Source: Paenibacillus hamazuiensis (GTDB taxonomy: Bacteria; Bacillota; Bacilli; Paenibacillales; NBRC-103111). From it: 64,000 bases of DNA. Below, one piece after another: positions 16,380 through 34,995 of the stretch (within the stretch, counting starts at the first letter, position 1; each line of letters opens with the position of its first letter). A program made the translations under genes and the position numbers. Below the pieces are notes generated by a model, which worked only from the letters and a program-made list of their open reading frames with translations, did not search any database and was not told the DNA's origin. Location: contig NZ_JALRMO010000001.1 of the NCBI RefSeq assembly GCF_023276405.1, forward strand, positions 3,286,001 through 3,350,000, in the 5' to 3' direction.

Positions 16380-16576
16380 ATGGATCGTCCTTTCTCTATG
16401 CAAGTATACTCAGGCCATGCCCACACATGAATGTTTTGTGAACGTTTGTGGAACAGCTTCATTATAGCATGTTCATACTTCGTCTGCCGAAAAATGTTTG
16501 AAAAGGTGGTGATCGGGGGAACGTAGATTTATAATATATATGAGGAAGCGAAAACTCGTATGGGAGGGGATGCTTC

Positions 16577-17089
16577 ATGTTATACGGAGTAGCGATTTTT
16601 CCGTCAAAAGAAGTGCAGGACGTTGCCAACAGCTATCGAAAACGGTTCGACCCTCATTACAATCTTATTCAGCCCCATTTAACGGTCAGGGAAAAAGAGG
16701 AATGGAACGACGAGCAGCTCGCCAAGGCAATTACCCACTTGCAGTCGGTCGCCGATCAAACGGCTCCGTTCACCGTTCATTTCAACCGGTTTTCCACCTT
16801 TTATCCGGTGGGTAACGTGATTTATATGGCTTTATCGCAACCGGAACCGCTGGTGAAGCTGTATCATAACATATGCAGCGGGTTATGGAAGGAACCGGGC
16901 AAGCCTTACGGCTATACCCCTCATCTTACGATTGGTCAACAACTGTCAAGCGACGAACTGCACGACGTGCTGGCCAGCCTGCGCAAAACGCCGCTCGATC
17001 TCACCGCGAACATCGACCGGTTTCATTTGTTATACCAAACGGAGAACGAAGCCTGGACGGTTCATCAAACATTTCAGCTTAAAGGCTAA
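16577..17089 (+). CDS. 2'-5' RNA ligase superfamily protein (YjcG-like)
   Basis: 170 residues of the 2H phosphoesterase superfamily. Both catalytic HxT motifs are present: H34-L-T36 (QPHLTV) and H116-L-T118 (TPHLTIG). The layout matches the YjcG family of Firmicutes, whose substrate is not known. A GGGAGGGG ribosome site precedes ATG 16577. A TATAAT lies about 45 bases upstream. Monocistronic. Confidence 0.88.
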   Translation: MLYGVAIFPSKEVQDVANSYRKRFDPHYNLIQPHLTVREKEEWNDEQLAKAITHLQSVADQTAPFTVHFNRFSTFYPVGNVIYMALSQPEPLVKLYHNICSGLWKEPGKPYGYTPHLTIGQQLSSDELHDVLASLRKTPLDLTANIDRFHLLYQTENEAWTVHQTFQLKG

Positions 17090-17187
17090 ATCGATCATCC
17101 CGGATAACTCGCCAAAGCGCGTGTCTATGGAAACGTGCGTTCCTCAATCCATGCAACAAAACTCCAACAAAGCCTTCTTTCTCTATT

Positions 17188-17221
17188 AAAAAGCCGTCCG
17201 ACAATGTCGGACGGCTTTTTT
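17188..17221. terminator. Bidirectional terminator
   Basis: AAAAAGCCGTCCGAC pairs with GTCGGACGGCTTTTT around a short AAT centre. It serves the 2H protein gene and the minus-strand RND operon. Confidence 0.85.
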
Positions 17222-17237
17222 GTCGCGGATACACCGC

Positions 17238-18980
17238 CTAGCTTTTGTATACGCCCAGCAGACGCTTCGATTCTCCCGCCGGGGTGGTGAACACCTCGTA
17301 CAGCTTCACCGTGATCGGGCGTTCCATTTGCTCGGTCGTTCCTTCCAGCATAATGTTGTTTTCTCCGGTAACCAGCTTGCCGGTTCCGATCAGGCTCGCC
17401 TGCTTCGTGGCAACGAGCCGGTTAAGCGTGTCGTAAGCTTCGAACTGCAGCTTGGAGAATCCGGCATCCACCTGCACTTGAGGATCGCGATTGATCGTCA
17501 AATCGAATCTCAGCTTGTACGAATATGTCATATTGCCCAAACGGTTAAACAGCGGCTGTACCGTGTAATAATCCACCTTGACGTCAAACGGATAAAGCGT
17601 GAACTGCTTGTCGTCCATCCCTTCCTGCAGCGTAACTCCATAAGCCGCAATCGTGGACTTGTAAGGTGCCGCGGTTGTCACATCCTGAATCTTGATGGCG
17701 AGCCCTTGACCGGTCTCGGAAACTGGCAGCGTGAACGAATATCCTATCACGAGGCTGGAGTTCGGCAGCACTTGCGTCGTCGTTACGTTTTGCCGGTTGC
17801 CCGAGTACAAATAGCCGTCCGCGCTTTGCAGGTCGGCCTGGAATACCGGTACTGCCATCGGCCGATCGCTTTTGTTCGTCAGCTTGAACTTCGCGGTCAT
17901 GTTTTTGGAGCCTTCGTCTTCGTTGTCGCTCATCCGGAATTCGACCATCGACACTTCCATATCCGGGTGAATGACATCGCTGACCCGGTCGAACTGCATC
18001 GGCTTGCCCATAACATACGGTTCGAAGGAAGAAGCGGCAGCGGACTTATCGGATGGAAGTATAATGTTAACGCGGCCAACGTTATAGCTGACGACCGAGT
18101 TCGATCCGGATTGCGCGAACTTCTCCGGAGTGAGTACGTTCAAGCTGGTGAGCTCGGAATCCAGCTCTGTGCTGATGACGTAATGAATGTATTTCTCTTC
18201 CTGAGCCTCGAGCACGATCGATTCCTGTTCAGCACGCTTGCCGCTGAACACCTTGACCTCCGTTTTTCCGTCGATATTGAAATCCGGCACCGTTTCGCGT
18301 TGGCTGCCAGGGTTTTTGACCAAAAGCTGAACCGTATAATTGGCTCCTTTATCCGTAATCTCTTTGTTGATATTGACCGGCGTATATTCAAGCGGAGAAA
18401 TGAAAGGCAGCACCTTAAACGTTTCTCCCCATTTTTTCACCATCGATTTATCGGTAATCTCCGTATCGCTGCCTTTCCAGGTTTGGTCCGTCACAGGCAC
18501 GGTAAGGATTCTCGTTTCCAGCTTCGGATACACATAAACGTCCACGTCGGTCCAGTTGACCTCGGTCAGCGAGAACGTATCGGTCCGGTCAATCACGGAC
18601 ATATAGCTCAGCTCCTGCGTCGTTTTCGGCTGGATCGAGCGCGGATTCGTCGCGCTCGGCTGGAGCGTATATTCAACGCCGTCCGACGTTTTAATCCGCA
18701 GCTCGTACGTATCGGGAACGCGGGTAATTTGCGTGCCTTTATTGGTCATGCGGACGACGACCCCAACGCGGGTGCCTCCGGTCACATATTCGCTGAGCAC
18801 ACTTTTGATTTCGACATCAAGCAGATCGGTAAGCTTATATTTGGCATACGCTTCGCTTGCGCTGCTTGCCGGCGCCGCACTCTGAGCCGGAGCATCGGCG
18901 GCGTATGCCGCCGCGCCGGCCGTCGTCAGCGCCATCGTAAGCACCACGGAAGTTACGGTCTTTTTCCAGTTCTTGTTCAC
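17238..18980 (-). CDS. Large secreted protein of tandem Ig-like domains, end of RND operon
   Basis: 580 residues, function unknown. Starting at GTG 18980 (GGAGGAG upstream), it has a signal peptide (to about residue 28) and then several repeated beta-sandwich-like modules. These carry the pattern V-x-MTNKGT-x-I-x-RVP-x-x-YELRI-x-TSDGVEY. The same module type occurs in the 704-residue protein at 24342-26456. The gene lies 27 bases after the adaptor gene and is the last of the RND operon. A role in substrate delivery or assembly at the cell surface is only inference. Confidence 0.75.
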   Translation of the reverse strand: MNKNWKKTVTSVVLTMALTTAGAAAYAADAPAQSAAPASSASEAYAKYKLTDLLDVEIKSVLSEYVTGGTRVGVVVRMTNKGTQITRVPDTYELRIKTSDGVEYTLQPSATNPRSIQPKTTQELSYMSVIDRTDTFSLTEVNWTDVDVYVYPKLETRILTVPVTDQTWKGSDTEITDKSMVKKWGETFKVLPFISPLEYTPVNINKEITDKGANYTVQLLVKNPGSQRETVPDFNIDGKTEVKVFSGKRAEQESIVLEAQEEKYIHYVISTELDSELTSLNVLTPEKFAQSGSNSVVSYNVGRVNIILPSDKSAAASSFEPYVMGKPMQFDRVSDVIHPDMEVSMVEFRMSDNEDEGSKNMTAKFKLTNKSDRPMAVPVFQADLQSADGYLYSGNRQNVTTTQVLPNSSLVIGYSFTLPVSETGQGLAIKIQDVTTAAPYKSTIAAYGVTLQEGMDDKQFTLYPFDVKVDYYTVQPLFNRLGNMTYSYKLRFDLTINRDPQVQVDAGFSKLQFEAYDTLNRLVATKQASLIGTGKLVTGENNIMLEGTTEQMERPITVKLYEVFTTPAGESKRLLGVYKS

Positions 18981-19006
18981 AGTTTTCTCCTCCAAAAATT
19001 AGGGTG

Positions 19007-20263
19007 TTATTTCGCCAGTTGTACTTTCTCTTTATCTTTGAGCTGATGCTGGCCGGAAATGACGAGCTGTTCGCCTTCCTTAAGCCCGGAAATGACCTCC
19101 TGCACCGTTTCGTTCAAACGGCCGAGAGTAACTTTGCGGCGTTCCACCGTATCGCCGTTCAGCACGAAAGCGTAGGTTTCCCCACCTTCGCGAACGACGG
19201 CGAGGGTCGGTATCGTTACAACGATCTGGTCGTTGTCTTCAGTCAATTGAATTTGTACCTTCATACCCGGCTTCAGCTTTTTGTCCGGATTGGACACTTC
19301 CAGTTCGAGTGGATACGATTTGCTCGAGGCGCTCATGACGTCGGCAAGATAACTTATTTTGCCTTTCGTTTTCTCGCCGCTGCCAGGTACGTAGAAGGTC
19401 AGCTCGCTCTTGCCGCGTACAAGCTTAGCCGCTTCTTCAGTCAGATCCGCCTTGATTTTGATCGGATCGAGCTTCTGCATCTGTGCCACCTTAAATCCGC
19501 CCTGCACGCTCATTCCTACCTCTACAGGCAGATCGGTGATGACGCCGCTCGTCGGCGCCTTCACCTCGAGGTTGTCGAGCGTGCGCTCCACTTCCTTCAG
19601 GCTCAGGTTGGACGACTGCGCCTGCTGCTCCAAACCGGCCAGCGAGTTCGTGCTCTCGAGTGTCTTCAGCTTGTCCTTGTTACCCTGCAGATCAAGCCGC
19701 AAATTATTCACCTGCGTCTCCATCTGATCAAGTTGGAATTTAGTGACAAGCCCTTGATCGTAATCGTTTCTCATTTTGTTGAAAGATTTTTCCTGTTCCT
19801 TGAGCGAAGCTTCCAATTTGGCAATGCCGTTCCTAAGCTCCTGCTTGGAGTTTTCCAAGTCTTCCTTCGATTTGGTGAGCTGAAGCTCTGCGCTTCTTAA
19901 CGCAACGGCAGCCTTGTCGCGGGAGAGCAGCACGTCGGTCGGATCCAGCCGAAGAATGACATCTCCCTGCTCTACGTAATCTCCACGTTTCTTTAAAATA
20001 TCCTGAATGTCGCCGCCGGCTTTCAGCACGACATCCATTTGAATCGAGGAGGCCACGTCGGCCACCTGCTCAATCGGGTCTCCGATTTTTTGTTTCTCGA
20101 TCTTGGCAACCTTTACGGTTTTCAGCTGCGCTTCCGCCGGCTTCTCCTCCGGCTGGGCCGCCGGGGCGCCTGCCGAGCAGCCGGCCACAATGGCCGTGCT
20201 CAGCAGAACAACGCCGGCAATTTTCGTGCTTTGTTTTACGGTATGGGCAAACAGCATCTTCAT
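19007..20263 (-). CDS. RND/HlyD-type membrane fusion lipoprotein (efflux adaptor)
   Basis: 418 residues. Lipobox IVAGCSAG marks it as a lipoprotein. Then follow a split barrel-sandwich (biotinyl-lipoyl-like) domain, with DVVLKAGGDIQDILKKRGDYVEQGDVILRLD, a long coiled-coil hairpin (about 115-220), APTSGVITDLPVEVGMSV completing the lipoyl domain, and beta-barrel and membrane-proximal domains. It should couple the RND pump encoded upstream to the cell surface. ATG 20263 follows GGGAG at 8 bases. It is within the four-gene operon. Confidence 0.9.
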   Translation of the reverse strand: MKMLFAHTVKQSTKIAGVVLLSTAIVAGCSAGAPAAQPEEKPAEAQLKTVKVAKIEKQKIGDPIEQVADVASSIQMDVVLKAGGDIQDILKKRGDYVEQGDVILRLDPTDVLLSRDKAAVALRSAELQLTKSKEDLENSKQELRNGIAKLEASLKEQEKSFNKMRNDYDQGLVTKFQLDQMETQVNNLRLDLQGNKDKLKTLESTNSLAGLEQQAQSSNLSLKEVERTLDNLEVKAPTSGVITDLPVEVGMSVQGGFKVAQMQKLDPIKIKADLTEEAAKLVRGKSELTFYVPGSGEKTKGKISYLADVMSASSKSYPLELEVSNPDKKLKPGMKVQIQLTEDNDQIVVTIPTLAVVREGGETYAFVLNGDTVERRKVTLGRLNETVQEVISGLKEGEQLVISGQHQLKDKEKVQLAK

Positions 20264-20301
20264 CGGTTGATCTCCCTTTCTCTTCACCTTAAGGTCCCGT
20301 T

Positions 20302-23300
20302 TCAGTTAGCCGGTACGGTTGCCGAATCGGCAGCGCCTGATTTGGCTTTCCGGTGGAACAAGCGGGACATTCTCTTTTTGAATTTATAGATCAGCTCGTA
20401 AGCGATCGGAACAATGACAAGCGTGAGCAGCGTCGATGTAGTCAACCCGCCGATAACGACGACGGCGAGTCCCTTGGAGATGATGGTCCCCTTGGATAAA
20501 CCGAGTGCGAGCGGCATCAGGGCAATAATCGTTGCGCCGGCTGTCATGATGATCGGACGCAGACGCGTCATACCTGCTTCGACCAGCGCGTCGCGAATTT
20601 CGTAACCTGCTTCGCGCAGCTGCTGCACGCGGTCGACGAGCACGATCGCGTTGGTAACGACGACACCGATCAACATCAGGAAGCCGATCAGGGAAGTGAT
20701 GTTGATCGATTCCTTGGTAATAACCAGTCCCAGCAAGCCGCCGATCGCCGCAAGCGGGAGGGAGAACAGAATCGCAAACGGCGCGCTGGCGTTGCCGAAG
20801 GCGAGAACCATTACGAGATACACGATGAAAATCGAAGCGAACATAGCCAAAAACATTTCTTTAAAACTTTTTTCGATATCGTCGGTAACCCCTTTGACCT
20901 GGGTCCGCACACCGCTCGGCAGGTCGACCGTTTTGAGCGCCTGGGACACCTTTTGGCTGACGCCGCCTTTGTCTTTGCTGTCGATATTGGCAGTCACGCT
21001 CACGATCTGCTCCTGGGCTTCCCGGCTGATCGAAACCGGAGCGTCCACCTGCCGCACTTTCGCCACCTCGTTGAGAGCAACTTCTGTTCCTGCAGGGGTT
21101 TTAATCGTAAGTTGGCCGAGCTTGTCGATGGAGTTTTTATACTTCGGATCAAGCTCGATTTTTGTTTTATAAAGGACGTTGTCGAAACGCAGATCCCCGA
21201 CTTTATCCTCCATAATCCAAACGCGGACGCTGTCCATGATTTGTGCGGAGCTCAGTCCGTACAAACGGGCTTTGTTCTGGTCGACCGTAATTTCCACTTC
21301 CGTTTTCGATTCTCCCAGAGAGTCTTTGATTTCCGTAAGCTCCGGAAACTCTTTCATCTTCTCTCTGACCCGCTCCGCAGCAACCTTCAGCAAATTCAAG
21401 TCGTCGCCGATCAGCGCGTACGAGAAATCCGCTCCTCCGCTTGGCGGACCTCCGGAGAGCAATTGACCGTCGGCTTCAGATCCCTTTGGCAGCAAATAAG
21501 CGATTTTTTCCTTGAATTCCTTGGCAACCTGTTTGGCATTCGAGGCTTTCGACGCTTCCGCAAAAAACATCGTCCGGTATGCGACCCGGTCCGTACTTTG
21601 ATTGTAGCCGATGAGCGATTCGTAGTAATTGAAGGTCGGCTGCCCTGCCGGATCTTTCGCTTCCTTCATCATCGCTTCGATTTCTTTTACCTTTTCATTC
21701 ATCGTTTCGATCGTAGTTTCGCGAGGCATTTTGATCGTAAACATCATCAATTTGTCCGTCTCGCTTTCCGGCATGAAAGATGTCGGAAGGTTCGGAACGG
21801 TGCCAACGAGTGTCACAATGAACAGCAAGAATGCGATAACCGACGTTTTGATCGGATTTTTGAGCGACCACAGCAGTACGCTTCTATATTTTTTCGCCAC
21901 TTTGCCGACTTCGTTTTCGTCATGATGCTTCAGTTTTTTCGACCGCAGCACCATCAACTTGGCCATCATCGGAATGACGGTCAGCGCCACGATAAGCGAG
22001 GACAACAGCGCGCAGCAGATCGTAATTGCGAACGGGCGGAACACTTCGCCGACGACCCCGCTGACGAAGGCGATCGGGGCGAACACGCCGACTGTCGTAA
22101 TCGTCGACGAGGTGATCGCCGAGGCGACCTGCCCGGTAGCGAGTCGAATGACCGACTCGTTGCGTTCGTGCGCTTTTTGCAGCTGGCTGAAAATATTTTC
22201 GATGACGACGATACTATCGTCGACGACACGCCCGATCGCTATCGCGAGCCCGCCGAGCGTCATAATGTTAAGCGAGATGCCGAGCGGTGCCATGATCAGC
22301 AGCGTGATCAGGATGGACAGCGGAATCGAGACGAGCACGATCACTGTCATCCGGACGTTGCGCAGGAACAGCAGGATCATCAGCGATGCGAGCACGGCTC
22401 CCATGCCGCCTTCCTGCACCATGCCGTGAATCGATTGTTTTATGTCCGTGGCGCTGTTGTAGATCGTGTGGAACGTAATGTTCGGGTAATCCTTTTTCCA
22501 GCCTTCCATCAGCTTGTCGGCCGCTGCGGCGAACTCCACCGCATTGGCGCTTTTGGTTTTGTACAGGTTAATGCCGATCGCAGGCTGACCGCTGAGTCGC
22601 GACAGAAATTCGGATTCCTGAATCGCCTCGACACGGGCAAGCTGCTTCAGAAGCACTGTATCTCCTTTGGCCGTTGTGATTTTGACGTTTTCCAGACCGA
22701 AAATCGTGTTGGCGTCGCCTTTGACGCGAACCATCTGCTCGTTCCCGTTAAAATCGACGGAACCGGCCGGGCTCGACACGAGCGCCGCTTTGATGGATTG
22801 AGACAACTGAGCCGGCGTAAGGCCGTAGTTGTTCATCGCATACATGTCGAGCTTGATGTTCAGCACCGCTTCCTGATTGCCGATGGAATCGACGTGGTCG
22901 ATCCCTTTGATCGAGTTGAAGCCCGGCAGGATGACATCCTTATAGACGCGATCGAGCTCCTCCTGACTCATTCCGTTTTTCGCATATGCGGACAAGTAGT
23001 AAACCGGCTCGGAAGCGAACCCGACGGTGAGCACCTTCGGTTTCTCGGAGCTTTCCGGAAGCTTGACGTTGGAAATGAGACTTTCCACGTCTTTTTTCAC
23101 ATCGTCCGGTTTTTTCTCCTGTTCCAGCTCGATGACGATTTGCGAAAAGTTGTCGCTTGAAGTCGACTTGAGGCTTTTGATTCCTTCCAGGCTCGCTATC
23201 GCTTTCTCCAGCGGCTTCGTGACGTCTTCAAGCACATCCTTCGGCGGTGCCAAATATTGCGTCGAGACGACGACGACCGGAAACGTGATATCCGGCATGC

Positions 23301-23409
23301 TTTCCACTTTCAAAGAGGTTGACGCAAATACGCCCCCCACGAACAGCAGCAAGATCAAAATGATAACCGCTGCAATGTTCTTCATGGAAAAATCGGTTAA
23401 CTTCAACAT
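20302..23409 (-). CDS. RND family efflux transporter (AcrB/MMPL-like permease)
   Basis: 1035 residues, the normal length for HAE1-type RND pumps. Visible are the N-terminal helix, two large extracytoplasmic loops (PN1/PC1 and PN2/PC2), and TM4 with GLAIAIGRVVDDSIVVIENIFSQLQK, whose two adjacent Asp are the proton relay. TM10 onwards ends with GVVVTNAIVLVDRVQQLREAGYEIRDALVEAGMTRLRPIIMTA. It is proton-driven and exports an unknown substrate. Repression by the adjacent GbsR-type regulator is likely. ATG 23409 has GGGAGG upstream. Confidence 0.92.
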   Translation of the reverse strand: MLKLTDFSMKNIAAVIILILLLFVGGVFASTSLKVESMPDITFPVVVVSTQYLAPPKDVLEDVTKPLEKAIASLEGIKSLKSTSSDNFSQIVIELEQEKKPDDVKKDVESLISNVKLPESSEKPKVLTVGFASEPVYYLSAYAKNGMSQEELDRVYKDVILPGFNSIKGIDHVDSIGNQEAVLNIKLDMYAMNNYGLTPAQLSQSIKAALVSSPAGSVDFNGNEQMVRVKGDANTIFGLENVKITTAKGDTVLLKQLARVEAIQESEFLSRLSGQPAIGINLYKTKSANAVEFAAAADKLMEGWKKDYPNITFHTIYNSATDIKQSIHGMVQEGGMGAVLASLMILLFLRNVRMTVIVLVSIPLSILITLLIMAPLGISLNIMTLGGLAIAIGRVVDDSIVVIENIFSQLQKAHERNESVIRLATGQVASAITSSTITTVGVFAPIAFVSGVVGEVFRPFAITICCALLSSLIVALTVIPMMAKLMVLRSKKLKHHDENEVGKVAKKYRSVLLWSLKNPIKTSVIAFLLFIVTLVGTVPNLPTSFMPESETDKLMMFTIKMPRETTIETMNEKVKEIEAMMKEAKDPAGQPTFNYYESLIGYNQSTDRVAYRTMFFAEASKASNAKQVAKEFKEKIAYLLPKGSEADGQLLSGGPPSGGADFSYALIGDDLNLLKVAAERVREKMKEFPELTEIKDSLGESKTEVEITVDQNKARLYGLSSAQIMDSVRVWIMEDKVGDLRFDNVLYKTKIELDPKYKNSIDKLGQLTIKTPAGTEVALNEVAKVRQVDAPVSISREAQEQIVSVTANIDSKDKGGVSQKVSQALKTVDLPSGVRTQVKGVTDDIEKSFKEMFLAMFASIFIVYLVMVLAFGNASAPFAILFSLPLAAIGGLLGLVITKESINITSLIGFLMLIGVVVTNAIVLVDRVQQLREAGYEIRDALVEAGMTRLRPIIMTAGATIIALMPLALGLSKGTIISKGLAVVVIGGLTTSTLLTLVIVPIAYELIYKFKKRMSRLFHRKAKSGAADSATVPAN

Positions 23410-23490
23410 TCTCTGTGAATCCTCCCATCCTTGGATGCAATTGCCAATATGATAAGACGCAATACGTCTGTAACAACCCTTCAGTACATC

Positions 23491-24018
23491 TTAAAACGTT
23501 TCGTTAAAGTTCAACTGCTCTCTCCGCTTCTGCCAATCGTCCTCCAGACCTGTCAGCTTATCGATAAACAGCTGATACATCGCCTGCATTTCGATAAACC
23601 GGCGCTTGAATGCATTGTGCGACGGCACATCCTCTTCGGATATGTCCCTGAGCTGGCCGAGCTTGTGCAAGGCCGAATCGATTTGGTTAAGTACGTCTTT
23701 CATTTTGCGTATAACGGAAGCTATCACAATCATGCTGAAATCGGGAGCTATGTAATAGTAGTCTTTGCGGTCGCTGCTGGTCGGCAGCTTGTTGCACATC
23801 GATTGCTTCTCCAGCGTCCTTACCTGAACGCTGACCGCCGCTTTTGTAACGCCGAGCGTCCCTGCCATTTCCTGAAGGCTGACCGGCTCCGGAGCAAAGA
23901 GGAGGAGCGCCAATATTTTTCCGGCGAGCGGACTGAATCCTTCGTTTTCGTACATAAGCGACATATGGTTGCTGATGCCGTTTTTCAAATCCGCGAAGGA
24001 AAAATCTGCATTACTCAT
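23491..24018 (-). CDS. GbsR/MarR-type transcriptional regulator
   Basis: 175 residues from ATG 24018 (GAGGAG upstream; the longer frame from 24087 lacks a ribosome site and would run through the promoter). The winged HTH covers about residues 30-100 (EPVSLQEMAGTLGVTKAAVSVQVRTLEKQSM), with a C-terminal dimer helix. The GbsR subfamily regulates osmolyte or efflux genes. It is the first gene of the RND operon, and a perfect inverted repeat overlaps its promoter, so autorepression is likely. Confidence 0.85.
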   Translation of the reverse strand: MSNADFSFADLKNGISNHMSLMYENEGFSPLAGKILALLLFAPEPVSLQEMAGTLGVTKAAVSVQVRTLEKQSMCNKLPTSSDRKDYYYIAPDFSMIVIASVIRKMKDVLNQIDSALHKLGQLRDISEEDVPSHNAFKRRFIEMQAMYQLFIDKLTGLEDDWQKRREQLNFNETF

Positions 24019-24040
24019 AGTAGTCTCCTCGGTATTTACA

Positions 24041-24074
24041 TTATTATCGTTTAGAAAGTTGTTAACGATAATAA
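24041..24074 (-). promoter_or_regulatory. Perfect inverted repeat, probable operator of the GbsR-type regulator
   Basis: TTATTATCGTT (24041-24051) and AACGATAATAA (24064-24074), separated by 12 bases, are perfect reverse complements. They overlap the -10 box and start region of the operon promoter. Confidence 0.75.
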
Positions 24075-24101
24075 CATACTTTGCCAATAAAAAAGTGTCA
24101 A
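24073..24101 (-). promoter_or_regulatory. Sigma-A promoter of the regulator/RND operon
   Basis: Minus strand TTGACA (24101-24096), 17-base spacer, TATGTT (24078-24073). The -10 box abuts the inverted repeat. Confidence 0.75.
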
Positions 24102-24274
24102 TAACATTTTCATGAATTTAACAATTCGCTCACACCACCTGCCGTAACAATGAAATTCCGGGTAACCCGCATGCCGCTTTATGATGTCAATTTTACTTGA
24201 TCTTCCATTTGCTTTCGCCCGGCTGCGGTCTGATTTTTCCAGTTCGAAATCTCCGTCTCGAGACGGAGGAAAAA

Positions 24275-24326
24275 CGAAAAAACACCGTGTCTCATCCCTC
24301 GATCCGGAGATTTAACACGGTGTAAT
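24275..24326 (-). terminator. Terminator of the ABC/SBP operon
   Basis: ACACCGTGT pairs with ACACGGTGT, followed on the minus strand by TTTTTTCG, about 16 bases after the stop of the 704-residue protein gene. Confidence 0.75.
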
Positions 24327-24341
24327 ATTCAAAACAAAGAA

Positions 24342-26456: not shown

Positions 26457-26474
26457 GGTGAGGTCCTCCTAAGA

Positions 26475-26608
26475 GTTTTGCGTCAGCAAAACTCGCATCG
26501 TAAGGATAAGCTAAGTTTCGCCCTGGCGGAACTTGCTTCGTAAGCATCTGCCGTTTTGCGTCAGCAAAACTCGCATCGTAAGGATAAACCGAGTTGCGCC
26601 TCGGCGAA
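26475..26608. repeat. Imperfect tandem 78-bp repeat with hairpin core
   Basis: A 35-bp segment occurs at 26475-26509 and again at 26553-26587, period 78. Each contains TTTTGCGTCAGCAAAA, a 6-bp stem hairpin, then CTCGCATCGTAAGGATAA. The following bases of each unit are similar but diverged. The reverse complement of the hairpin (TTTTGCTGACGCAAAA) recurs at 50411-50426. The second unit runs up to the binding-protein stop. Confidence 0.75.
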
Positions 26609-26610
26609 AA

Positions 26611-28107
26611 TTATTTCGCAATAGGCACTGCTGTAGCGGCTCCCATATCGATCTGCGCGTTCGGGTTATCCTTCAACTGCTGCAGCGCCGCATCCCCTTG
26701 CGACTGCCATTTCTTCAGGGCGTCGCGCGCACCGGTTTTGCCTTGGAGCACTTCCTGGAACACGTTGCGTCCTATATCGCGTACTTGATAAATGTTTTGC
26801 TTTTCCCTGTAAATCTTGTAATCATCCTGTCGGTTTGCCGGAGCCAGCTTCGCGAACGCTTCGATATTAAAGTCGAGTCCGTCTTTCGGCTTCAAATATT
26901 TTTTGCGGGAAACGAGCTGCTGGTTGCTCTTCGACTTGAGGCGCGCCCAGTCTTCGCCGTTAATGAACTTGATGAATTTCCATGCATCGTCCGGGTTTTG
27001 CGCCTTGGCGTTAATGCCCATAATACCGTTCATGCCGATGTACCCGCCCACGCCCGGCGCCTCCTGATGGGTCGGCAGCGAAACGACGTTCCAGTCGATC
27101 GGCGTGAACCCTTTGATGTTGGCCGCGCTTTTGTTCGCATTGACGATCTGATCGATTTGCCCGTAGCCGATAATCGTCATCGCAACGCGGCTCGACAGGA
27201 AATCGTCGTGCTGGAACGGATTGAAATCCTCCGGATTCGTGCTCATCATGCGTTCTTTCATTTGGCGCGGGTCCTGCACCGGCGGCATGATTTTTTCGTT
27301 GTTCAGCTGGACCATCGTCTTCCATACTTTTTCCCACTGATCGGAATCGACCGTCATTTTCTCGCCTTTGTCGTCAAAGACACGCAGCTGGAGAGGAGCC
27401 GTATATATATCCATCGAATAGAACAAATCTCCTCCGGAATACGGGCTGAAGGCGAAGCCGTATTTCCGGTTATCCCCTTCTCCTTTGGCGACGCGCCGGG
27501 CGAGGTCGAACGTTTCGTCCCATGTCATGCCGTCTTTCGGGTAGGGGACCCCCGCTTCGTCGAACATTTTTTTATTGTAAATAAGGGCGGACGAATAAAA
27601 CGTCGGAGACAGCGCGTACAGCTTGCCGTCGCCTTGCTTCTTGATACCGTCGATCACCGCAGGCACGTAGTCCGAAACGTCGAATTTGTCTTGGGCGATC
27701 TTCGGATCAAGCTGCGTCAGCAGGTTGCTCGAAACCAGGTCGTTCAGCTGCTCGTAGTTCACCATGACGACATCCGGCGGATTGTCGCCTTCCATCGCTT
27801 TTTTCAGCTGCTCAAGCGGGTCCGGCATTTTTTCTCCGGGAGCCATCCGCCCGTAGCCGTAGCGGTATTTATCGTCCATCGTCTGCACCATTTCGATCTT
27901 GATATTCGGGTTCGCGAATTCGAATACTTCCGTGAACTGCTGACGGAAGTAATCGTCGTCGCCGAATCCCATGCTCGTCGCGATGCGCAGCACGCGTTCG
28001 GTTTTCGTATCGGTATTTCCCTGCCCTTTGCTGCAGGCCGCCAGCAGCGGTACCATCATGCTGACAGCGATCGTGAGCGGAACCGCTCGATGAATCCATT
28101 TTTTCAT
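26611..28107 (-). CDS. Extracellular solute-binding lipoprotein (family 1) within an FtsX-type ABC operon
   Basis: 498 residues. Lipobox VPLLAACSKG with lipidated C25. The body is a family 1 binding protein (EMVQTMDDKYRYGYG, DVVMVNYEQLNDLV, LYALSPTFYSSALIYNKKMFDEAG, GMTWDETFDLARRVA), normally partner of a sugar or oligosaccharide importer. No importer permease is next to it; it follows the AbrB-tailed ATPase by 25 bases. Its ligand is unknown. Co-location with export-type ABC genes is unusual and suggests a sensing or scaffolding role (inference). Confidence 0.88.
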   Translation of the reverse strand: MKKWIHRAVPLTIAVSMMVPLLAACSKGQGNTDTKTERVLRIATSMGFGDDDYFRQQFTEVFEFANPNIKIEMVQTMDDKYRYGYGRMAPGEKMPDPLEQLKKAMEGDNPPDVVMVNYEQLNDLVSSNLLTQLDPKIAQDKFDVSDYVPAVIDGIKKQGDGKLYALSPTFYSSALIYNKKMFDEAGVPYPKDGMTWDETFDLARRVAKGEGDNRKYGFAFSPYSGGDLFYSMDIYTAPLQLRVFDDKGEKMTVDSDQWEKVWKTMVQLNNEKIMPPVQDPRQMKERMMSTNPEDFNPFQHDDFLSSRVAMTIIGYGQIDQIVNANKSAANIKGFTPIDWNVVSLPTHQEAPGVGGYIGMNGIMGINAKAQNPDDAWKFIKFINGEDWARLKSKSNQQLVSRKKYLKPKDGLDFNIEAFAKLAPANRQDDYKIYREKQNIYQVRDIGRNVFQEVLQGKTGARDALKKWQSQGDAALQQLKDNPNAQIDMGAATAVPIAK

Positions 28108-28132
28108 TGTGGTTTCCCCTTTTCTCTCACCG

Positions 28133-29014
28133 TTACGGCGTATTGGTCGGCGAATCGTTCAGGCGCTTCGGGGCCCGGATGATGATCGATTCGCCGTCAA
28201 ACTCCATCGAAGCTTTATTGTCTATTTTGAGCGCCTGCAAATATGCTTTCGGTATTTGCAGGCGGCCGGCTTTGTCAAGCACGACGTATTCCTCGTGCAC
28301 CTCCTGAATCGACTGGCCGGCTGTATCCAAATTCGGATTACGTTTAATAAATTCCGTGCTGGTCATCCCGTCGCGGATCGCGACGACGCGGTCCACCTTG
28401 CTCGCAAGCGACAAGTCGTGGGTGACGATGACGATCGTAACGCCGAGCTCGCGGTTCAATCGCCGGAAAATGTCCATGATCATGTCGGACGTCCGCGTAT
28501 CGACGGAGCCGGTCGGTTCGTCCGCGAGCAGCAGCTGCGGCCGGTTGGCCAGCGAAATCGCAATCGCGACGCGCTGCTGTTCGCCGCCTGACAGCTGGTG
28601 CAGCTTGTTGTGGATCCGGTCCTTGAGGCCGACCCATTCAAGCAGCTGCAGAGCGTATTTGCGATCGTATTCGCCGCTCAGCATCATCGGCGTTTCGACG
28701 TTTTCCAGCGCGGTCAAATAGGAAATCAGGTTGCGCGCGTTGTTTTGCCAAATGAAACCGACTGTTTTCCGCTTGTACTGTACAAGCTGATCGTCGGTAA
28801 TTTTCAGCAAATCCCACTCGCCGACGCGAACCTGGCCTGCAGACGGGCGGTCGAGGCCGCCCAAAATGTTAAGCAGCGTCGACTTCCCGCTTCCGCTGTT
28901 GCCGATGATCGCCATCATTTCGCCTTGCGAAACGGCGATGTTGAGTCCTTGCAGCGCGACGACCTCGATGTCGTCGGTTTTGTATATTTTCACAAGCCCT
29001 TCGCACGTGATCAT
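28133..29014 (-). CDS. ABC transporter ATPase with C-terminal AbrB-like domain
   Basis: 293 residues. MacB/LolD-type ATPase: Walker A GNSGSGKST at 38-46, signature LSGGEQ at 141-146, Walker B LLLADEP at 161-167, and H-loop THD at 198-200. Residues about 242-283 form an added AbrB/SpoVT-like swapped-hairpin domain (YVVLDKAGRLQIPKAYLQAL, then EFDGESIIIR). AbrB domains usually bind DNA or dimerise. The gene starts 4 bases after the permease stop, so it is coupled to the long permease. It is the second ATPase of this operon. Confidence 0.88.
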   Translation of the reverse strand: MITCEGLVKIYKTDDIEVVALQGLNIAVSQGEMMAIIGNSGSGKSTLLNILGGLDRPSAGQVRVGEWDLLKITDDQLVQYKRKTVGFIWQNNARNLISYLTALENVETPMMLSGEYDRKYALQLLEWVGLKDRIHNKLHQLSGGEQQRVAIAISLANRPQLLLADEPTGSVDTRTSDMIMDIFRRLNRELGVTIVIVTHDLSLASKVDRVVAIRDGMTSTEFIKRNPNLDTAGQSIQEVHEEYVVLDKAGRLQIPKAYLQALKIDNKASMEFDGESIIIRAPKRLNDSPTNTP

Positions 29015-29017
29015 CGC

Positions 29018-31948
29018 TTATTTCTCCTCCCCCAGCTTGACGGCCTGATGCACGCGCAATCGCCGGATATGCAGCAGGAGCAGCGTCGCCCCCGTCAGCA
29101 TCATGAAGGCGACGACCATGTACAGCTGATCGGTATCGCGCGCGTTAAACACAACCCTGAACGGCGGCACCTGCGTTTTGACGTTGTCCGCCGTCTGCAG
29201 AAACGGCAGGAACAGGTAGCTCGTCAGTTTGCCGATGCCGATGCCGAGTGCGATCGACAGTCCGGCGGTGGAGATTTGCTCGAGCAGCAGCATGCCGGTG
29301 AGCTGTTTTCGCGACAGCCCCATCGCCCTCAGGACGCCGAACTGCACGACCCGGCTCGACAGGTTGAAAAACCAGTACAGCACATAGCCGATCAAGGACA
29401 CGATGACCGAGACGAGGAAGCCGAGGCTGAGAATGCCGAACACCCCGCCGCGTGACGGATGTTTCTTTTGCGTGATCAGCTCGTTTCGCACATCCTGGAC
29501 GCTTGCGACCTGGATGTTTTGGGCGGCGAGCTTCTCGAGAATCGGGGCGACCTTGGCGCCGTCGTTCATCTTGAGCCATACCTCGTACGGGATCACCGAA
29601 GCCTGGTCGTAAATATACTCCAGATTCGTAATGAAAAAAGGCATCTGATCCGGATATTGCCCGGGCCAATAAGGAAGCGACGCCACGACGACGAACTCGA
29701 GCTGCTGCTGCGCGACCGAGATCGTGATCAAATCGCCCTCCTTGATCTGGTACTTTTGGGCGAAGCCGCTCGGAACGATCACCGCCTGCTCGTATGTGCC
29801 GAGCAGGTTCAAATATTGATTCGGGTGCGCCTTGAACAGGTCGCGCCGGAACCAGCCGACCTTGGCGAAATCGACATTGTCGATGCCAAGCACCATGCCT
29901 TGGCCGGCCGACTTGCCGCCTACAACCACATTCCCTTTCGTCTTCAGCACGCGCGCTGCGGCGGAGACGCCGTCCAGCTCGCGAAACACCTCGAAAGGCG
30001 GCTCCACGTAGCGCACTTTCGAAGGAGGCGGTTCCCCGCCGGGCCCTCCCGGCATGCCGCCCGGAACTCCGCCAGCGCCTTGGCCGGATCCTTGACCGCC
30101 TCCGGCTCCCTGCGCTCCGCCGCCTCCCGCCTGGCTGCCGCCACCCTGCTGCTGGCCCGCGTTCGGATCGGGCAAATCGTCGGAGAAGCCTTCCCATACC
30201 GTCTGGATGATGACGTCCGTGCCGTATTTGTACAGCGTCCGTTCGGTCGAGTTCAGATCGATCGTGCGGGCTGCGGACGAGTTGTATACGCCGAGCCCGA
30301 GCGTCAGGATGAGCAGCAGCATGAGCGGGTAATACGCTTTGGACGAACGCGACAGCTGCGTCAGCGTTAAATACACCGGTACCGGCAAAAACCTTCTGCC
30401 GAGCCAATTGCCCAGACGCAGCAGCCATGGGAATACGCGCAGGAAAAAAAGTCCGAGCGCAATGATCGACAGCGCGGGCACGAAGAACAGCAGCGGATGC
30501 ACCTGCAGCTGGTCGCTTGTCAGCCCTGTCTGCAGCGACAGCATCTGGCGCTGGTCGAAAAGGTAGTAGCCGTAGCCGACGAGCGCGAGCAGCGCGAGAT
30601 CGAGAAACCAGCGCTGCCATACGGGAGCGCGGTCCGAACGGGCGAGCTGCTTCTTATAGTCGACGATCGACGCTCTGGCGTACAGGATCGCCGGGATCAC
30701 GCTCGCGAAGAGTGCGATCACCACTGCGGCGACGCCGTACAGCAGCGCCTCCGCCGATACGCCGACAGGCACCGCCTTCCGGTCGACGAAGGTGAGAAAC
30801 CCGCTGGAGGAGCCGATGCTTTTGGCCATAAACCAACCGAGCAGCGGTCCGATGACAAGCGAGATGCCGCCGAGAATCAATCCTTCCAGCAAATATACCC
30901 CGATGATTTGCCGCGTGCTGCCTCCCCGGCTGCGCAGCACGGCGATGACGCTCCGCTGGCGCTCGAGCGACTGGCGCGCATTCATCACGATGTAATAAAA
31001 CACCATCGCGATCATCGGCGCCGCCAGCGTGAACAGCAATATTTGCAGCTGCAGGCTCATCTTCTTGAATTCGCCGAGCGTCGGCAAAAACGAAACGTCC
31101 ACGCGGGTGTCTTTCAGCTTCTGGAACAGCACGATATCGAGCCGTTCCAGCTTTTTTTCAAGCGCTGCGATCTGGCTGGTCTGGATTTCCCGCAGGTCGA
31201 ACGCGTAATACCAATTCGCCAAATTCAGCGGTATTTTTTTCTGCTTCAATATGTAATCGCCAAACATCGCTTCGCTTACGTAAAACTGGCTTAAAATCCC
31301 TTCCATTCCTTGATACCAGTAAGGATCGCCGTCCTGCTTCGGCTTGAACGTTCCGGTGACCTTCACTTTGAGCGGCGCGATGCCGAGTCCGCCGGCAATC
31401 GGGTAGCTGAATACGTCGCCGACGTGAATGTCGTTCCGGTACATCGCCTCCTCGTGAATAACGGCCTCGACGACGCCGTTTTCCACCTTGTCCGAAGGGA
31501 GCTGCCCGTTTGTCATCTCCACGTGGTCGGCAAGATCGTTTTGACCGACGATCGTCATTTGCCGGCGTTTGCTCGGATCCACCTTCGACGGGTCTTCCGG
31601 TGTAATTTGCGTGCCGCGGATCGAGTAGCTTCGCACATATGCGCCGTAAGGAAACCCGATTTCCTGCGGCAGCTCGCTTTGGATATATCCGTCCACATCG
31701 GCCAGCGCATCCAGGTCCGCCCTGTCGCTTCCCACCGCCTGGTAGCGGATCAGCACCGCTCCGGCCGGAAAGCCGCTGTTTTTCTCCTCCAGCGTTTTGG
31801 CGACGACCCGTTTCAGCGAACCGTCCGCGTACATCGGGATGCTCGTCGTAAAGGCGACCGCCATGATCAGTCCGAGCAACGTGCTGGCCGTCAGCCATCG
31901 GGTATTCCACATTTTGCGGTATAAAAACCGCAGCATCGGCATGCCCAT
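29018..31948 (-). CDS. Very long FtsX/MacB-type ABC permease
   Basis: 976 residues. It has an N-terminal TM helix, an extracytoplasmic MacB-like domain, an FtsX core near 305-430 (PMIAMVFYYIVMNARQSLERQRSVIAVLRSRGGS), further helices, and a second extracytoplasmic domain. A final FtsX core is near 850-960 (FGVLRAMGLSRKQLTGMLLLEQ). A Gly/Gln/Pro-rich linker lies near residues 590-640 and includes GGGSQAGGGGAQGAGGG. The two FtsX cores in one chain mean it can work as a pseudo-dimer. The ATG shares one base with the adaptor stop (TGATG). Confidence 0.88.
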   Translation of the reverse strand: MGMPMLRFLYRKMWNTRWLTASTLLGLIMAVAFTTSIPMYADGSLKRVVAKTLEEKNSGFPAGAVLIRYQAVGSDRADLDALADVDGYIQSELPQEIGFPYGAYVRSYSIRGTQITPEDPSKVDPSKRRQMTIVGQNDLADHVEMTNGQLPSDKVENGVVEAVIHEEAMYRNDIHVGDVFSYPIAGGLGIAPLKVKVTGTFKPKQDGDPYWYQGMEGILSQFYVSEAMFGDYILKQKKIPLNLANWYYAFDLREIQTSQIAALEKKLERLDIVLFQKLKDTRVDVSFLPTLGEFKKMSLQLQILLFTLAAPMIAMVFYYIVMNARQSLERQRSVIAVLRSRGGSTRQIIGVYLLEGLILGGISLVIGPLLGWFMAKSIGSSSGFLTFVDRKAVPVGVSAEALLYGVAAVVIALFASVIPAILYARASIVDYKKQLARSDRAPVWQRWFLDLALLALVGYGYYLFDQRQMLSLQTGLTSDQLQVHPLLFFVPALSIIALGLFFLRVFPWLLRLGNWLGRRFLPVPVYLTLTQLSRSSKAYYPLMLLLILTLGLGVYNSSAARTIDLNSTERTLYKYGTDVIIQTVWEGFSDDLPDPNAGQQQGGGSQAGGGGAQGAGGGQGSGQGAGGVPGGMPGGPGGEPPPSKVRYVEPPFEVFRELDGVSAAARVLKTKGNVVVGGKSAGQGMVLGIDNVDFAKVGWFRRDLFKAHPNQYLNLLGTYEQAVIVPSGFAQKYQIKEGDLITISVAQQQLEFVVVASLPYWPGQYPDQMPFFITNLEYIYDQASVIPYEVWLKMNDGAKVAPILEKLAAQNIQVASVQDVRNELITQKKHPSRGGVFGILSLGFLVSVIVSLIGYVLYWFFNLSSRVVQFGVLRAMGLSRKQLTGMLLLEQISTAGLSIALGIGIGKLTSYLFLPFLQTADNVKTQVPPFRVVFNARDTDQLYMVVAFMMLTGATLLLLHIRRLRVHQAVKLGEEK

Positions 31949-33042
31949 CAGCGACCCACTACTTTCTGCCCCGGCGTAAGTCCCTTCACGATTTCCACGT
32001 CGGTTGAGGTTTGTTGGCCGATCTCCACATCGACTTCCCGCTTGTTGCCTTTATCGTCCACCACCTGCACATAGTTGCGCCCCGAATACGAACGCAGCGC
32101 CGCAAGCGGGATCGTGACCGCATTTTCCTTGCGCTGGGTAATGATGGACACGCTCAGCGGCGTCCCCCGGTTTAAATTAGGCGGAAATTCGTCCAATTGA
32201 ATCAACAAATAATTGTCGATCGAATCCGGCACGCGCTGCTGCCCGTTCGATTGCCCGGGGAAGCCGCCACCGGACTGCGAGCCGCCGCTTGTCGAATCCG
32301 GGTTCGGCAGCTGCAGCACCTTGCCTTTTTGCTGGCCCACGCCGTTGATATCGACGACCGCTTCCATGCCGACCGCCACTTTCTTCAGGTCGTCCGGGCC
32401 GATCGTCGCCGCTACGGTGAGCTGATTCAGATCCGCAATCACGGCGACCGCGTCGTAAGCCTTCACGGTATCGCCTTTTTTCAAATAAACGGAGACGACG
32501 GTGCCGGAAAAAGGAGCGGTCAGCTTCGCCCTGGCCACATCCTGCTCAAGCTTGTTCACATCTTCGCGCTTCAGCTCGAAATCGATCTTGGCCTGTTCGA
32601 GCTGCTCGGCGCTCATTTCGTCGGCTTTGCGCAGCGTTTCGATCATCTGCAGCTCGTCCTTGCGCAGCTGCAGCTTCCTCTGCTTGAGCTGGGTCTCCTG
32701 TTCGGTCACATCAAGCTCGGCGAGCAACTGGCCCTGCTCCACTTTGTCGCCGGTTTTCACATACATCTCCTTAAGCCGCTTGTTCGTATCGTCGGTAAAA
32801 TAAAGCTCTTCCTCCTTCGTCGCCATCAGCCGACCGGAGCCGCGCACCTTCGTTTCCAACGTTTCCGTCTTGACCGTGTACTCGGGTTTTTTGGACAGCT
32901 TCGGCGGATTGATGGCGGGAAGCGTCTCCTCTTCATCTTCCTTAGGGAGCACCGAGCAGCCGCTCGAAACAGCCAGCGCGGCTGCGACGCACACGAGCAT
33001 CACCGGACGAACGGCTCTTTTAGCCGGCCAAAAATTTTCCAT
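31948..33042 (-). CDS. HlyD-type membrane fusion lipoprotein (ABC export adaptor)
   Basis: About 364 residues. Lipobox AVSSGCSVL. A lipoyl-like domain starts around VRGSGRLMATKEEELYF and resumes with LTAPFSGTVVSVYLKKGD, on both sides of a coiled-coil hairpin. A beta barrel and a C-terminal domain with VVDDKGNKREVDVEIGQQTSTDVEIVKGL follow. It should link the ATPase/permease complex to the surface, as MacA does for MacB. The start at 33042 overlaps the upstream ATPase gene by 22 bases. An alternative at 33000 would leave a signal without basic residues. Confidence 0.85.
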   Translation of the reverse strand: MENFWPAKRAVRPVMLVCVAAALAVSSGCSVLPKEDEEETLPAINPPKLSKKPEYTVKTETLETKVRGSGRLMATKEEELYFTDDTNKRLKEMYVKTGDKVEQGQLLAELDVTEQETQLKQRKLQLRKDELQMIETLRKADEMSAEQLEQAKIDFELKREDVNKLEQDVARAKLTAPFSGTVVSVYLKKGDTVKAYDAVAVIADLNQLTVAATIGPDDLKKVAVGMEAVVDINGVGQQKGKVLQLPNPDSTSGGSQSGGGFPGQSNGQQRVPDSIDNYLLIQLDEFPPNLNRGTPLSVSIITQRKENAVTIPLAALRSYSGRNYVQVVDDKGNKREVDVEIGQQTSTDVEIVKGLTPGQKVVGR

Positions 33043-33826
33043 CCACCATCTCGTAGACATGGTCGGCAACCTCCATTATCGTCGTATCGTGTGTCGTCAT
33101 GCAGATCGTGATATGTTCGTTTGCGATAATATCGCGAAACACCGCCATAATCTGCGCTCCCATCTGCGAATCGAGCTCCGCGGTCGGCTCGTCGGCCAGG
33201 ATGAGCGACGGCCTGTGGGCAATCGCCTTGGCGATCGCCACGCGCTGCTGCTCGCCGCCGGACAGCTCGAACGGCCGGTGATGCATCCGTTTGCCGAGGC
33301 CGACAAGCTCCATGCAGTGGGTCACGCGCTGCTTCCACTGCGATTTCGGCACTCCTGCCATGCGAAGCGACAGCTCGACGTTTTCGTAAGCGGAGAGCAG
33401 CGGCATCAGCGCGAACGACTGAAAAATAAAGCCGATCTGCCTCCTGCGGATAAGCGTCCGCTCGTCGTCGCCGCAGCGGTGAAACGGATGATCCATGAAC
33501 ATGATCTCGCCTTTGTTCGGCTGGTCGAGTCCTCCCATCAGATTCATCAGCGTCGTTTTGCCCGAGCCGGAACGTCCCTTCAGCATGATGAGACGCTCCG
33601 GATACATCGTCAAATTAATCCCTTTGAGCACATGAAGCTGCTGTCCGCCGACCTGAAACGACCGCTCCACATCCGTGACGGTCAGCAGCGGCTTGGCCGG
33701 TGCCGGCGGCGTCTCCCGCAAGCCGGATTGCCCGTCTTCGGATCCGGAAGCGTTACTGTGTTCCAAAGTGCCTTCTGCGTCATCGGGTTCGCGGCGCTCT
33801 TGTTTTTTGCGAAACCATGATGCCAT
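33020..33826 (-). CDS. MacB/LolD-type ABC transporter ATPase
   Basis: 268 residues. The N-terminal 45 residues are a polar tail. The ATPase core follows, with Walker A KGRSGSGKTT near 83, signature LSGGEQQ near 188, Walker B LILADEP near 208 and H-loop THD near 243. It is the first gene of the six-gene operon. A TGTAAC-N17-CGTC element lies 66 bases upstream and a ribosome site GGAGGAAG lies just before ATG 33826. Confidence 0.9.
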   Translation of the reverse strand: MASWFRKKQERREPDDAEGTLEHSNASGSEDGQSGLRETPPAPAKPLLTVTDVERSFQVGGQQLHVLKGINLTMYPERLIMLKGRSGSGKTTLMNLMGGLDQPNKGEIMFMDHPFHRCGDDERTLIRRRQIGFIFQSFALMPLLSAYENVELSLRMAGVPKSQWKQRVTHCMELVGLGKRMHHRPFELSGGEQQRVAIAKAIAHRPSLILADEPTAELDSQMGAQIMAVFRDIIANEHITICMTTHDTTIMEVADHVYEMVDGKFLAG

Positions 33827-33891
33827 GTTTTCTCTTCCTCCTGCTCTGTCCTAGTAAACTAGCAAAATTATGTAAGTATGACATATTTATA

Positions 33892-33918
33892 GACGAGGCA
33901 AATTGGAGAAAGGTTACA
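33892..33918 (-). promoter_or_regulatory. ECF-type promoter of the ABC/adaptor operon
   Basis: Minus strand TGTAAC (33918-33913), 17-base spacer, CGTC (33895-33892). This fits Bacillus sigma-M/sigma-X type ECF promoters. It differs in the -35 from the AAACCG/CGTTAC pair at 13082 and 14879. No sigma-A promoter of similar quality is seen in the gap. Confidence 0.6.
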
Positions 33919-34045
33919 GCTTTAAAAAAATTTTAGAAACCGAAATGCCGTTTGTGCCGATGAAATCGCTTTTACTCCTTGTCATTTAACCATAAATTGT
34001 CTATTATTACATTGGTTTAAACAATCATAAAGGAGCATTTTACCT

Positions 34046-34924: not shown

Positions 34925-34950
34925 GGCGCCTCCGGCGCCCAGTCCCCACG

Positions 34951-34980: not shown

Positions 34981-34995
34981 TTCACCCGTTAGGGA

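Follow-up and report, generated by a model that had tools for sequence, protein, structure and literature searches.

The tripartite pumps of Gram-negative bacteria combine an engine, a periplasmic adaptor and a TolC-type factor. In monoderm bacteria, the MacAB-like pumps Spr0693-0695 (PMC5768738) and YknWXYZ (PMC5985334) consist of an adaptor, a MacB/FtsX-type permease and a separate ATPase; the available parts of these two reports mention no secreted third protein, and the extra component YknW is described as a membrane protein (PMC4338810). The role of adaptors in monoderms was described as open (PMC5985334, PMC4338810), and the conservation of their hairpin as 'puzzling' and 'a significant gap in knowledge' (PMC4338810). 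In the streptococcal model, the apex of the adaptor is ~154 Å above the membrane, roughly as high as the inner wall space is thick (PMC5768738). Here we describe two adjacent export operons of Paenibacillus hamazuiensis that end with genes for related secreted proteins, SEC_A (580 aa) and SEC_B (704 aa). Both lie in a stretch of 64,000 nucleotides (contig NZ_JALRMO010000001.1, positions 3,286,001 to 3,350,000), hereafter called the window.

Operon A (24087-17238, minus strand) encodes a MarR regulator, a resistance-nodulation-division (RND) transporter, an adaptor and SEC_A. Operon B (33826-24342, minus strand) contains six genes, the last of them encoding SEC_B. An earlier note on this DNA had described adjacent RND and MacB-like ATP-binding cassette (ABC) operons on one strand, each with its own adaptor and each ending with a related secreted protein; Pfam confirmed the two pump operons and their adaptors, a profile comparison (hhalign) bears out the relatedness of the final proteins, and AlphaFold models contain several beta-sandwich domains in each of them. 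The pump genes it ascribed to operon B are present; it had left the solute-binding protein and the second ATPase unnamed.

The adaptor, MacB/FtsX-type permease and separate ATPase of operon B are as in Spr0693-0695 and YknWXYZ, and SEC_B distinguishes it from what the available text says of these pumps. The SEC systems have engine families (RND, major facilitator superfamily [MFS] and MacB ABC) and adaptor families in common with the Gram-negative tripartite pumps. As in AcrAB-TolC and MacAB-TolC, an RND, MFS or MacB engine is encoded together with a HlyD/MacA adaptor, and the third component is encoded next to the adaptor and is of one kind across engines. However, this component is a secreted, apparently unanchored immunoglobulin (Ig)-like rod and not an outer-membrane channel. 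No gene of operons A and B scores above the cut-off of the TolC family OEP (the operon A adaptor stays below it, with 16 bits against 22), and the SEC models consist almost wholly of beta structure. This lineage is expected to lack an outer membrane.

A further parallel is provided by FtsEX-EnvC and FtsEX-PcsB, in which an FtsX-type ABC permease acts via a separate extracellular protein, as proposed here. PcsB is a hydrolase (PMC5768738) and EnvC, according to the title of its report, activates amidases, whereas Pfam detects no hydrolase domain in SEC_A or SEC_B. A literature search of limited reach retrieved no description of a secreted Ig-like adaptor partner, and none is found in the available parts of PMC8277102, PMC5985334, PMC4338810, PMC13328181 and PMC5768738.

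Pairing of SEC_A with adaptors and exchange of engines

As judged from gene order, SEC_A and the adaptor form a near-constant pair and the engine is exchangeable. The pair observed in the window is one case of a wider SEC_A-adaptor rule. SEC_A was found in 92 and SEC_B in 96 of the 98 genomes of the same family (E 1e-10). A class-wide search, in which at most four candidates per genome were scored, found SEC_A at the same threshold, among 299 genomes, in the own genome and in a single further one; this further copy (locus L132) also adjoins an adaptor and an RND gene.

The analyzed sample comprised all 60 loci of one search (Paenibacillus and close kin), nine further loci of the own genome, 40 loci hand-picked, not at random, among the matches listed, and 40 loci chosen mainly for SEC_B. 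The deduplicated set contains 100 SEC_A of at least 400 aa, the window's own SEC_A being left aside. An adaptor is encoded in the same-strand gene run for 97 of them; of the remaining three, L033 has its adaptor beyond a gap, and contig ends truncate L068 and L069. The adaptor gene is immediately upstream of SEC_A in 87 of the 100 cases, with a median gap of 25 bp, and when duplicates are included, it is found within three genes on either side of all 106 SEC_A not located at an edge. A simple lipobox pattern is present in 94 of 99 main-class adaptors. In Paenibacillus sp. P25 (L071), the RND, MarR, SEC_A and SEC_B frames seem split, which may be due to sequencing error or decay.

The own genome (8.8 Mb) contains eight SEC_A and three SEC_B genes, and a HlyD/MacA-type adaptor gene is located beside all eleven. 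The SEC_A loci are four RND operons, two MFS loci (L032, L033), one MacB operon (L034), whose SEC_A relative matches residues 290-579 only, and one polysaccharide cluster (L029), where the adaptor and SEC_A accompany Wzz, a kinase-like ATPase, UDP-glucose dehydrogenase and glycosyltransferases. All three SEC_B loci are of the FtsX/MacB type; one of them (L027, 6304-13762) combines an importer-type permease, an adaptor, a MacB_PCD protein and a solute-binding protein. Twelve of the 14 HlyD_D23 proteins found in the genome belong to SEC loci, the other two being a 706-aa long-hairpin adaptor (L198) and a short adaptor of 213 aa encoded with an MFS transporter (L199). Among eight RND genes (one further weak match is left out of this count), four are accompanied by an adaptor and SEC_A, three by neither (one of these is in two pieces), and one by an unusually long adaptor without SEC_A. 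The RND loci without adaptors provide natural negative controls within the same genome.

For the reverse test, the window adaptor was used as a query against nine single-contig genomes of the same family, and matches with E 5.1e-86 or lower were considered close. The SEC_A gene directly follows 23 of the 24 close relatives. Nine weaker matches (E 2e-24 or weaker) were kept out of this count. Of the seven read, three in MFS loci also have SEC_A (L240, L241 and, by coordinates, genome G091 at 6.30 Mb), three are long adaptors encoded with RND without SEC_A (L242-L244), and one is encoded with SEC_B (L224). Neither the close adaptor nor SEC_A was detected, at the thresholds applied, in 20 genomes of the sister family; six partial adaptor matches were found in three of these genomes (best E 1.7e-18), none of them with SEC_A in reach.

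The engines associated with the 97 SEC_A that have a full adaptor are RND (70), Wzz/kinase (13), MFS (8), ABC-2 (4), polysaccharide (1) and MacB (1). The tree of these SEC_A requires four switches to or from RND, of which no fewer than three are forced by well-supported branches. The distance matrices of the 70 RND operons correlate at 0.954 between SEC_A and the adaptor, 0.890 between SEC_A and RND, and 0.899 between the adaptor and RND. The partial correlation of SEC_A with the adaptor given RND is 0.77, a value reached by none of 999 permutations, and that of SEC_A with RND given the adaptor is 0.24. The divergence of SEC_A tracks that of the adaptor more than that of the RND pump. This pattern is what a contact between SEC_A and the adaptor predicts, and rate differences and shared history can contribute to it.

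In all 13 Wzz/kinase loci, the lasso-type asparagine-synthase gene and the HPr-kinase-like gene each have a homologue, and PqqD and transglutaminase-like genes are within reach in ten of them. The lasso-type domains were identified by Pfam in L176 (778-12925) and by homologues in the other twelve loci (L083, L089, L090, L096, L154, L159, L160, L168, L171, L174, L175 and L177). From these domains and the usual make-up of such clusters, we take the loci, which encode Wzz, a tyrosine-kinase-like ATPase, an adaptor and SEC_A, to be of the lasso-peptide type. They look like a combination of peptide export with envelope export.

The alpha-hairpin region spans 109-194 residues (median 120) in 96 SEC_A-paired adaptors and 109-153 residues in those encoded with RND or MFS engines. 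Seven of the eight measured RND/MFS adaptors without SEC have longer hairpins (120, 194, 194, 218, 218, 299, 301 and 301 residues in the eight). A rank test on hairpin lengths (p 1.5e-6) was set aside as evidence because the rows are related. The rise of a helix is 1.5 Å per residue and an Ig-like domain is roughly 35-40 Å long. By this arithmetic, a hairpin of 120 residues reaches ~90 Å and one of 300 residues ~225 Å, and four Ig-like domains would add ~150 Å. A pump might thus extend its reach either by SEC_A or by a long hairpin, an estimate drawn from few independent groups and with the exceptions given below. In three long-hairpin RND operons (L198 2997-11194, L242 6872-14987, L244 1568-9883), which have adaptors of 663-746 aa, the operon ends with an RCC1-SLH protein identified by Pfam; the hairpin has about 300 residues in L198 and L244, the two that were measured. 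In adaptors from operons similar to operon B and related to its adaptor, the hairpin region is 56-58 residues long.

Secreted proteins and the distribution of SEC_B

The profiles of SEC_A and SEC_B align with hhalign probability 98 and E 1.7e-13; judged by this alignment, the two proteins are distantly homologous, beyond chance. The NKGT...VP...TSDGY module, noticed earlier as common to both, occurs twice in each of them, at positions 80 and 369 of SEC_A and 207 and 468 of SEC_B. DUF4352 (PF11611) matches SEC_B with 33.5 bits, over the gathering cut-off of 25.9. SEC_A is considered DUF4352-like and not a member because its score of 21.6 bits is under that cut-off. At E 0.001, this family matches 28 of 45 SEC_A relatives and 22 of 29 SEC_B relatives. 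DUF4352 proteins have a beta-sandwich and an N...G...P...D-G...Y module in common with the SEC proteins, which differ in their tandem domains and in being encoded mostly beside pump adaptors.

The AlphaFold model of SEC_A (pLDDT 84, pTM 0.72) contains four beta-sandwich domains with limits set by us at roughly 46-168, 190-310, 320-455 and 456-580, and that of SEC_B (pLDDT 80, pTM 0.57) about five. SEC_A is accordingly modelled as a multi-Ig rod. Most structural neighbours among the matches listed are Ig/fibronectin-type proteins of a generic kind. The top match of SEC_A, PDB 5bxg (Z 9.6, root mean square deviation 4.1 Å over 123 residues), is an uncharacterized beta-sandwich protein of C. difficile (CD630_09570), similar in fold and formed by a single 151-residue chain, unlike the four or five tandem domains of the SEC proteins. 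Sequence searches against PDB gave nothing at E 0.1.

Both proteins start with signal-like segments of the Sec type, as judged by eye. SEC_A has no cysteines, and the single cysteine of SEC_B is inside the signal segment. In 97 different SEC_A with a length of 500 aa or more and in 75 SEC_B, no later transmembrane-like stretch was found; a lipobox is absent from all 97 SEC_A, and one of the 75 SEC_B has a lipobox-like string. An LPxT[GA] string near the C-terminal end was observed in three of the 97 SEC_A. By these sequence features, SEC_A is apparently secreted without an anchor.

SEC_B is present at E 0.001 in 24 of 200 genomes of the class, the own genome included. Nine of 18 SEC_B loci from outside the family have an adaptor (L118-L137, minus L132, which is a SEC_A locus, and L133, where no SEC_B was recognised). 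For the family itself, the 20 SEC_B-centred loci described below are relied on in preference to two other counts. An adaptor in the gene run of 60 of 76 SEC_B is an inflated count because many loci are centred on SEC_A and the run crosses into operon A; an adaptor within three genes of 34 of 56 SEC_B is too low because the six-gene operon puts the adaptor four genes off and some rows are fragments (L071). The order ATPase-adaptor-FtsX-ATPase-solute-binding protein-SEC_B is retained in other orders of bacteria (L127, L128; L129 is similar) and looks ancestral. SEC_B relatives are located near SLH genes, together with S-adenosylmethionine synthetase, in L136 (1293-13591, also with Big_5) and L192 (11-12333). 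Assignment of L118, L122, L135-L137, L191 and L192 to type VII secretion systems, made from the sizes of open reading frames, was rejected: it was ruled out by Pfam for L136 and L192 (SLH proteins, S-adenosylmethionine synthetase) and by gene size and order only for the other five.

Organization of operons A and B

The features of both operons are collected in Table 1. The SEC_A gene starts with GTG preceded by GGAGG, 26 bp after the end of the adaptor gene; an alternative TTG start at 18995 would yield a protein of 585 aa. An ATG near 24018, which lies after the promoter-like site, is probably the true start of the MarR gene. Such sites are about as frequent in this region as in shuffled sequences (13 versus 10.2). 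The palindrome is a possible MarR operator; palindromes of the form TTATCGTT-n12-AACGATAA were found near MarR in 5 of 51 MarR-class loci. The terminator candidate has a 24-base loop and is absent from the list produced by the stem-loop scan, which accepts loops of at most 8 bases. Operons A and B look like separate transcription units because this potential stem-loop follows SEC_B, and the promoter-like site and the palindrome precede the MarR gene. An Rfam search of 16000-36000 gave no match above threshold.

Table 1. Genes and potential regulatory sites of operons A and B (window positions).
Feature	Position	Strand	Basis	Remark
ABC ATPase	33826-33020	-	Pfam	first gene of operon B
HlyD/MacA-type adaptor, lipoprotein	33069-31948	-	Pfam, lipobox	
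FtsX-type permease, 976 aa	31948-29018	-	Pfam	two FtsX stretches
Second ABC ATPase (LolD/MacB class)	29014-28133	-	Pfam	
Extracellular solute-binding lipoprotein (SBP_bac_1)	28107-26611	-	Pfam	frequent SEC_B neighbour
SEC_B, predicted secreted, 704 aa	26456-24342	-		final gene of operon B; ~five predicted beta-sandwich domains, DUF4352-like module
Terminator-like stem-loop, 9-bp arms, 24-base loop, T run	~24323-24276	-	by eye	after operon B
Promoter-like site TTGACA-17-TATGTT	24101-24073	-	site scan	upstream of operon A
Palindrome 8+8 bp, TTATCGTT-n12-AACGATAA	24071-24044	-		precedes MarR gene
MarR-family regulator	24087-23491	-	Pfam	first gene of operon A
RND transporter (ACR_tran), 1035 aa	23409-20302	-	Pfam	
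HlyD/RND-type adaptor (membrane fusion protein), lipoprotein (Cys37)	20287-19007	-	Pfam, lipobox	alpha-hairpin region ~120 residues
SEC_A, predicted secreted, 580 aa	18980-17238	-	AlphaFold	final gene of operon A; four predicted beta-sandwich domains

The operon B permease, to be compared with the 4-TM permeases of Gram-positive MacAB-like pumps, which have one extracellular domain, contains two FtsX stretches in its 976 aa and has no MacB_PCD match in the Pfam scan. Its operon includes a solute-binding protein of the sugar-importer type within a MacB/FtsX exporter operon, and such a protein adjoins SEC_B also in members of the class from other families (L127-L130). The intergenic stretch that separates the solute-binding gene from SEC_B contains two exact copies of a 34-bp repeat, 78 bp apart (26476-26587); the window contains no third copy, and the 22-bp core was found only in loci covering the same place. 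A 608-aa open frame antisense to SEC_A (17220-19046, plus strand) is most likely an artefact of base composition. Judged from its translation, the 292-aa membrane protein encoded at 34046-34924 on the plus strand resembles a single-domain voltage-gated ion channel.

Possible role of SEC_A as an outer pump component

Because SEC_A pairs, at nearly all loci examined, with one adaptor class whatever the engine, it is a good candidate for the outer part of a pump in a cell without an outer membrane. A partnership of SEC_A with the adaptor, taken alone, appears very probable from gene order and co-divergence. We lean slightly towards SEC_A being the dedicated extracellular partner of one hairpin-bearing class of HlyD-type adaptors, a monoderm counterpart of the outer-membrane duct. 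That it both docks on the adaptor and extends the export path is, in our estimate, evenly balanced. In such an arrangement, the rod of four Ig-like domains would dock on the adaptor ring, probably at the tips of the hairpins, and would carry, guide or anchor the export path through the cell-wall zone, filling the place of TolC-type ducts of diderms. SEC_B would perform the same task in the FtsX/MacB-type operon, and some of its copies may serve the S-layer region without an adaptor.

Several observations weigh against this assignment. A single bacterial family supplies almost all of the SEC_A rows. The exception in the reverse test (L229/L239, genome G065) has a TetR gene between the adaptor and RND; since its adaptor has the usual 120-residue hairpin and is encoded with RND without SEC_A, SEC_A is not an obligatory partner. 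The nine genomes of that test contain 46 SEC_A profile matches versus 24 close adaptors; therefore many SEC_A are accompanied by adaptors of other classes or are partial matches, as read for part of them. Genes of one operon are expected to co-evolve even if their products do not touch, and RND may evolve slower. A crude test of N-terminal hydrophobicity was passed by only 64 of 97 SEC_A and 66 of 75 SEC_B. Few independent events underlie the hairpin contrast, as the SEC-less RND/MFS adaptors form only about four related groups. In the four ABC-2 cases, SEC_A is present beside a hairpin of 194 residues, as long as in some SEC-less adaptors, and the sister-family MacB-type adaptors L247 and L248 have short hairpins (69 residues where measured) without any SEC in reach. 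A strict rule of hairpin length was rejected, being broken by L239, the ABC-2 cases, L247 and L248.

Other points against concern SEC_B. Among 20 SEC_B-centred loci of the same family (L178-L197, hand-picked, not random), a same-strand adaptor is present in 14 and absent from six, some of the six being S-layer gene clusters. Some SEC_B of the sister family are located in clusters of SLH/Big_5 surface proteins (L136 by Pfam, others by gene size), which hints at a second function in the S-layer. SEC_B is not confined to pumps, because copies sit in S-layer clusters without an adaptor. The concern that the modules might occur mostly in unrelated contexts is thus partly borne out for the 704-aa type, through these six of 20 loci, S-layer clusters among them, and is not borne out for the 580-aa type.

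The foremost alternative, which we regard as unlikely, is an anchor: the secreted protein would fasten the complex of adaptor and pump to peptidoglycan, a secondary polymer or the S-layer without itself extending a conduit. It would fit the SEC_B copies in SLH/Big_5 loci, the RCC1-SLH protein that takes the SEC_A slot in the RND operons with very long adaptors, and the resemblance of the fold to generic Ig/fibronectin-type rods. However, neither the window proteins nor 45 SEC_A and 29 SEC_B scanned at E 0.001 match SLH or known wall-binding families, and a general anchor would not need tight pairing with one adaptor class.

Somewhat less likely still is a substrate receptor or chaperone, an Ig-like protein that binds the exported compound outside and exchanges it with the adaptor, or senses it. 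CusF, which acts with CusBAC, offers an analogy. The solute-binding protein encoded beside SEC_B in operon B and in many relatives would be in line with this role, and the exported compounds plausibly differ between operons, as the N-terminal half of the protein can (L034). Yet conservation is spread across all four domains in the 45 closer SEC_A, and the constant neighbour is the adaptor and not the engine that sets the substrate.

It is very improbable that the SEC genes are only co-regulated, encoding general envelope-stress proteins that do not work with the pump. SEC_B is found away from pumps too, but the reverse association, the absence of SEC_A from the three adaptor-less RND loci of the same genome and the retention of eight divergent paralogues beside adaptors in one genome argue otherwise. 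The least probable explanation is export of the secreted protein by the pump, for which its place at the operon end, as in some secretion substrates, might speak: the N-termini are signal-like, one family accompanies RND, MFS, ABC-2, MacB and polysaccharide/lasso-peptide-type systems that have no plausible common protein substrate, and RND and MFS pumps are not known to export folded proteins of 60-75 kDa.

The signal-like N-termini and the diversity of engines led us to drop the substrate hypothesis as the leading idea. The interpretation in the earlier note thus holds in part. Its suggestion of an extracellular extension, in the wider sense of a partner, is supported by the adaptor at every non-truncated SEC_A locus examined, the reverse association and the divergence that tracks the adaptor, all of which point to such a role; its suggestion of pump substrates finds no support, and its view that these proteins are not usual parts of such pumps is wrong for this bacterial family, whose pumps regularly include the 580-aa type.

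Returning to SEC_A as the extracellular partner of the adaptor, we tentatively speculate, with more doubt than confidence, that monoderms have three-part trans-envelope pumps of their own. The SEC rod would be independent of the engine, dock on the hairpins and extend the path; adaptors without SEC would often compensate by longer hairpins, some of them with a wall-anchored RCC1-SLH protein in the SEC_A slot. With its near one-to-one association with one adaptor class across engines, SEC_A is a named candidate for the binding partner of the hairpin. If this is true, drug and antibiotic export in these monoderms would involve a third, surface-exposed component.

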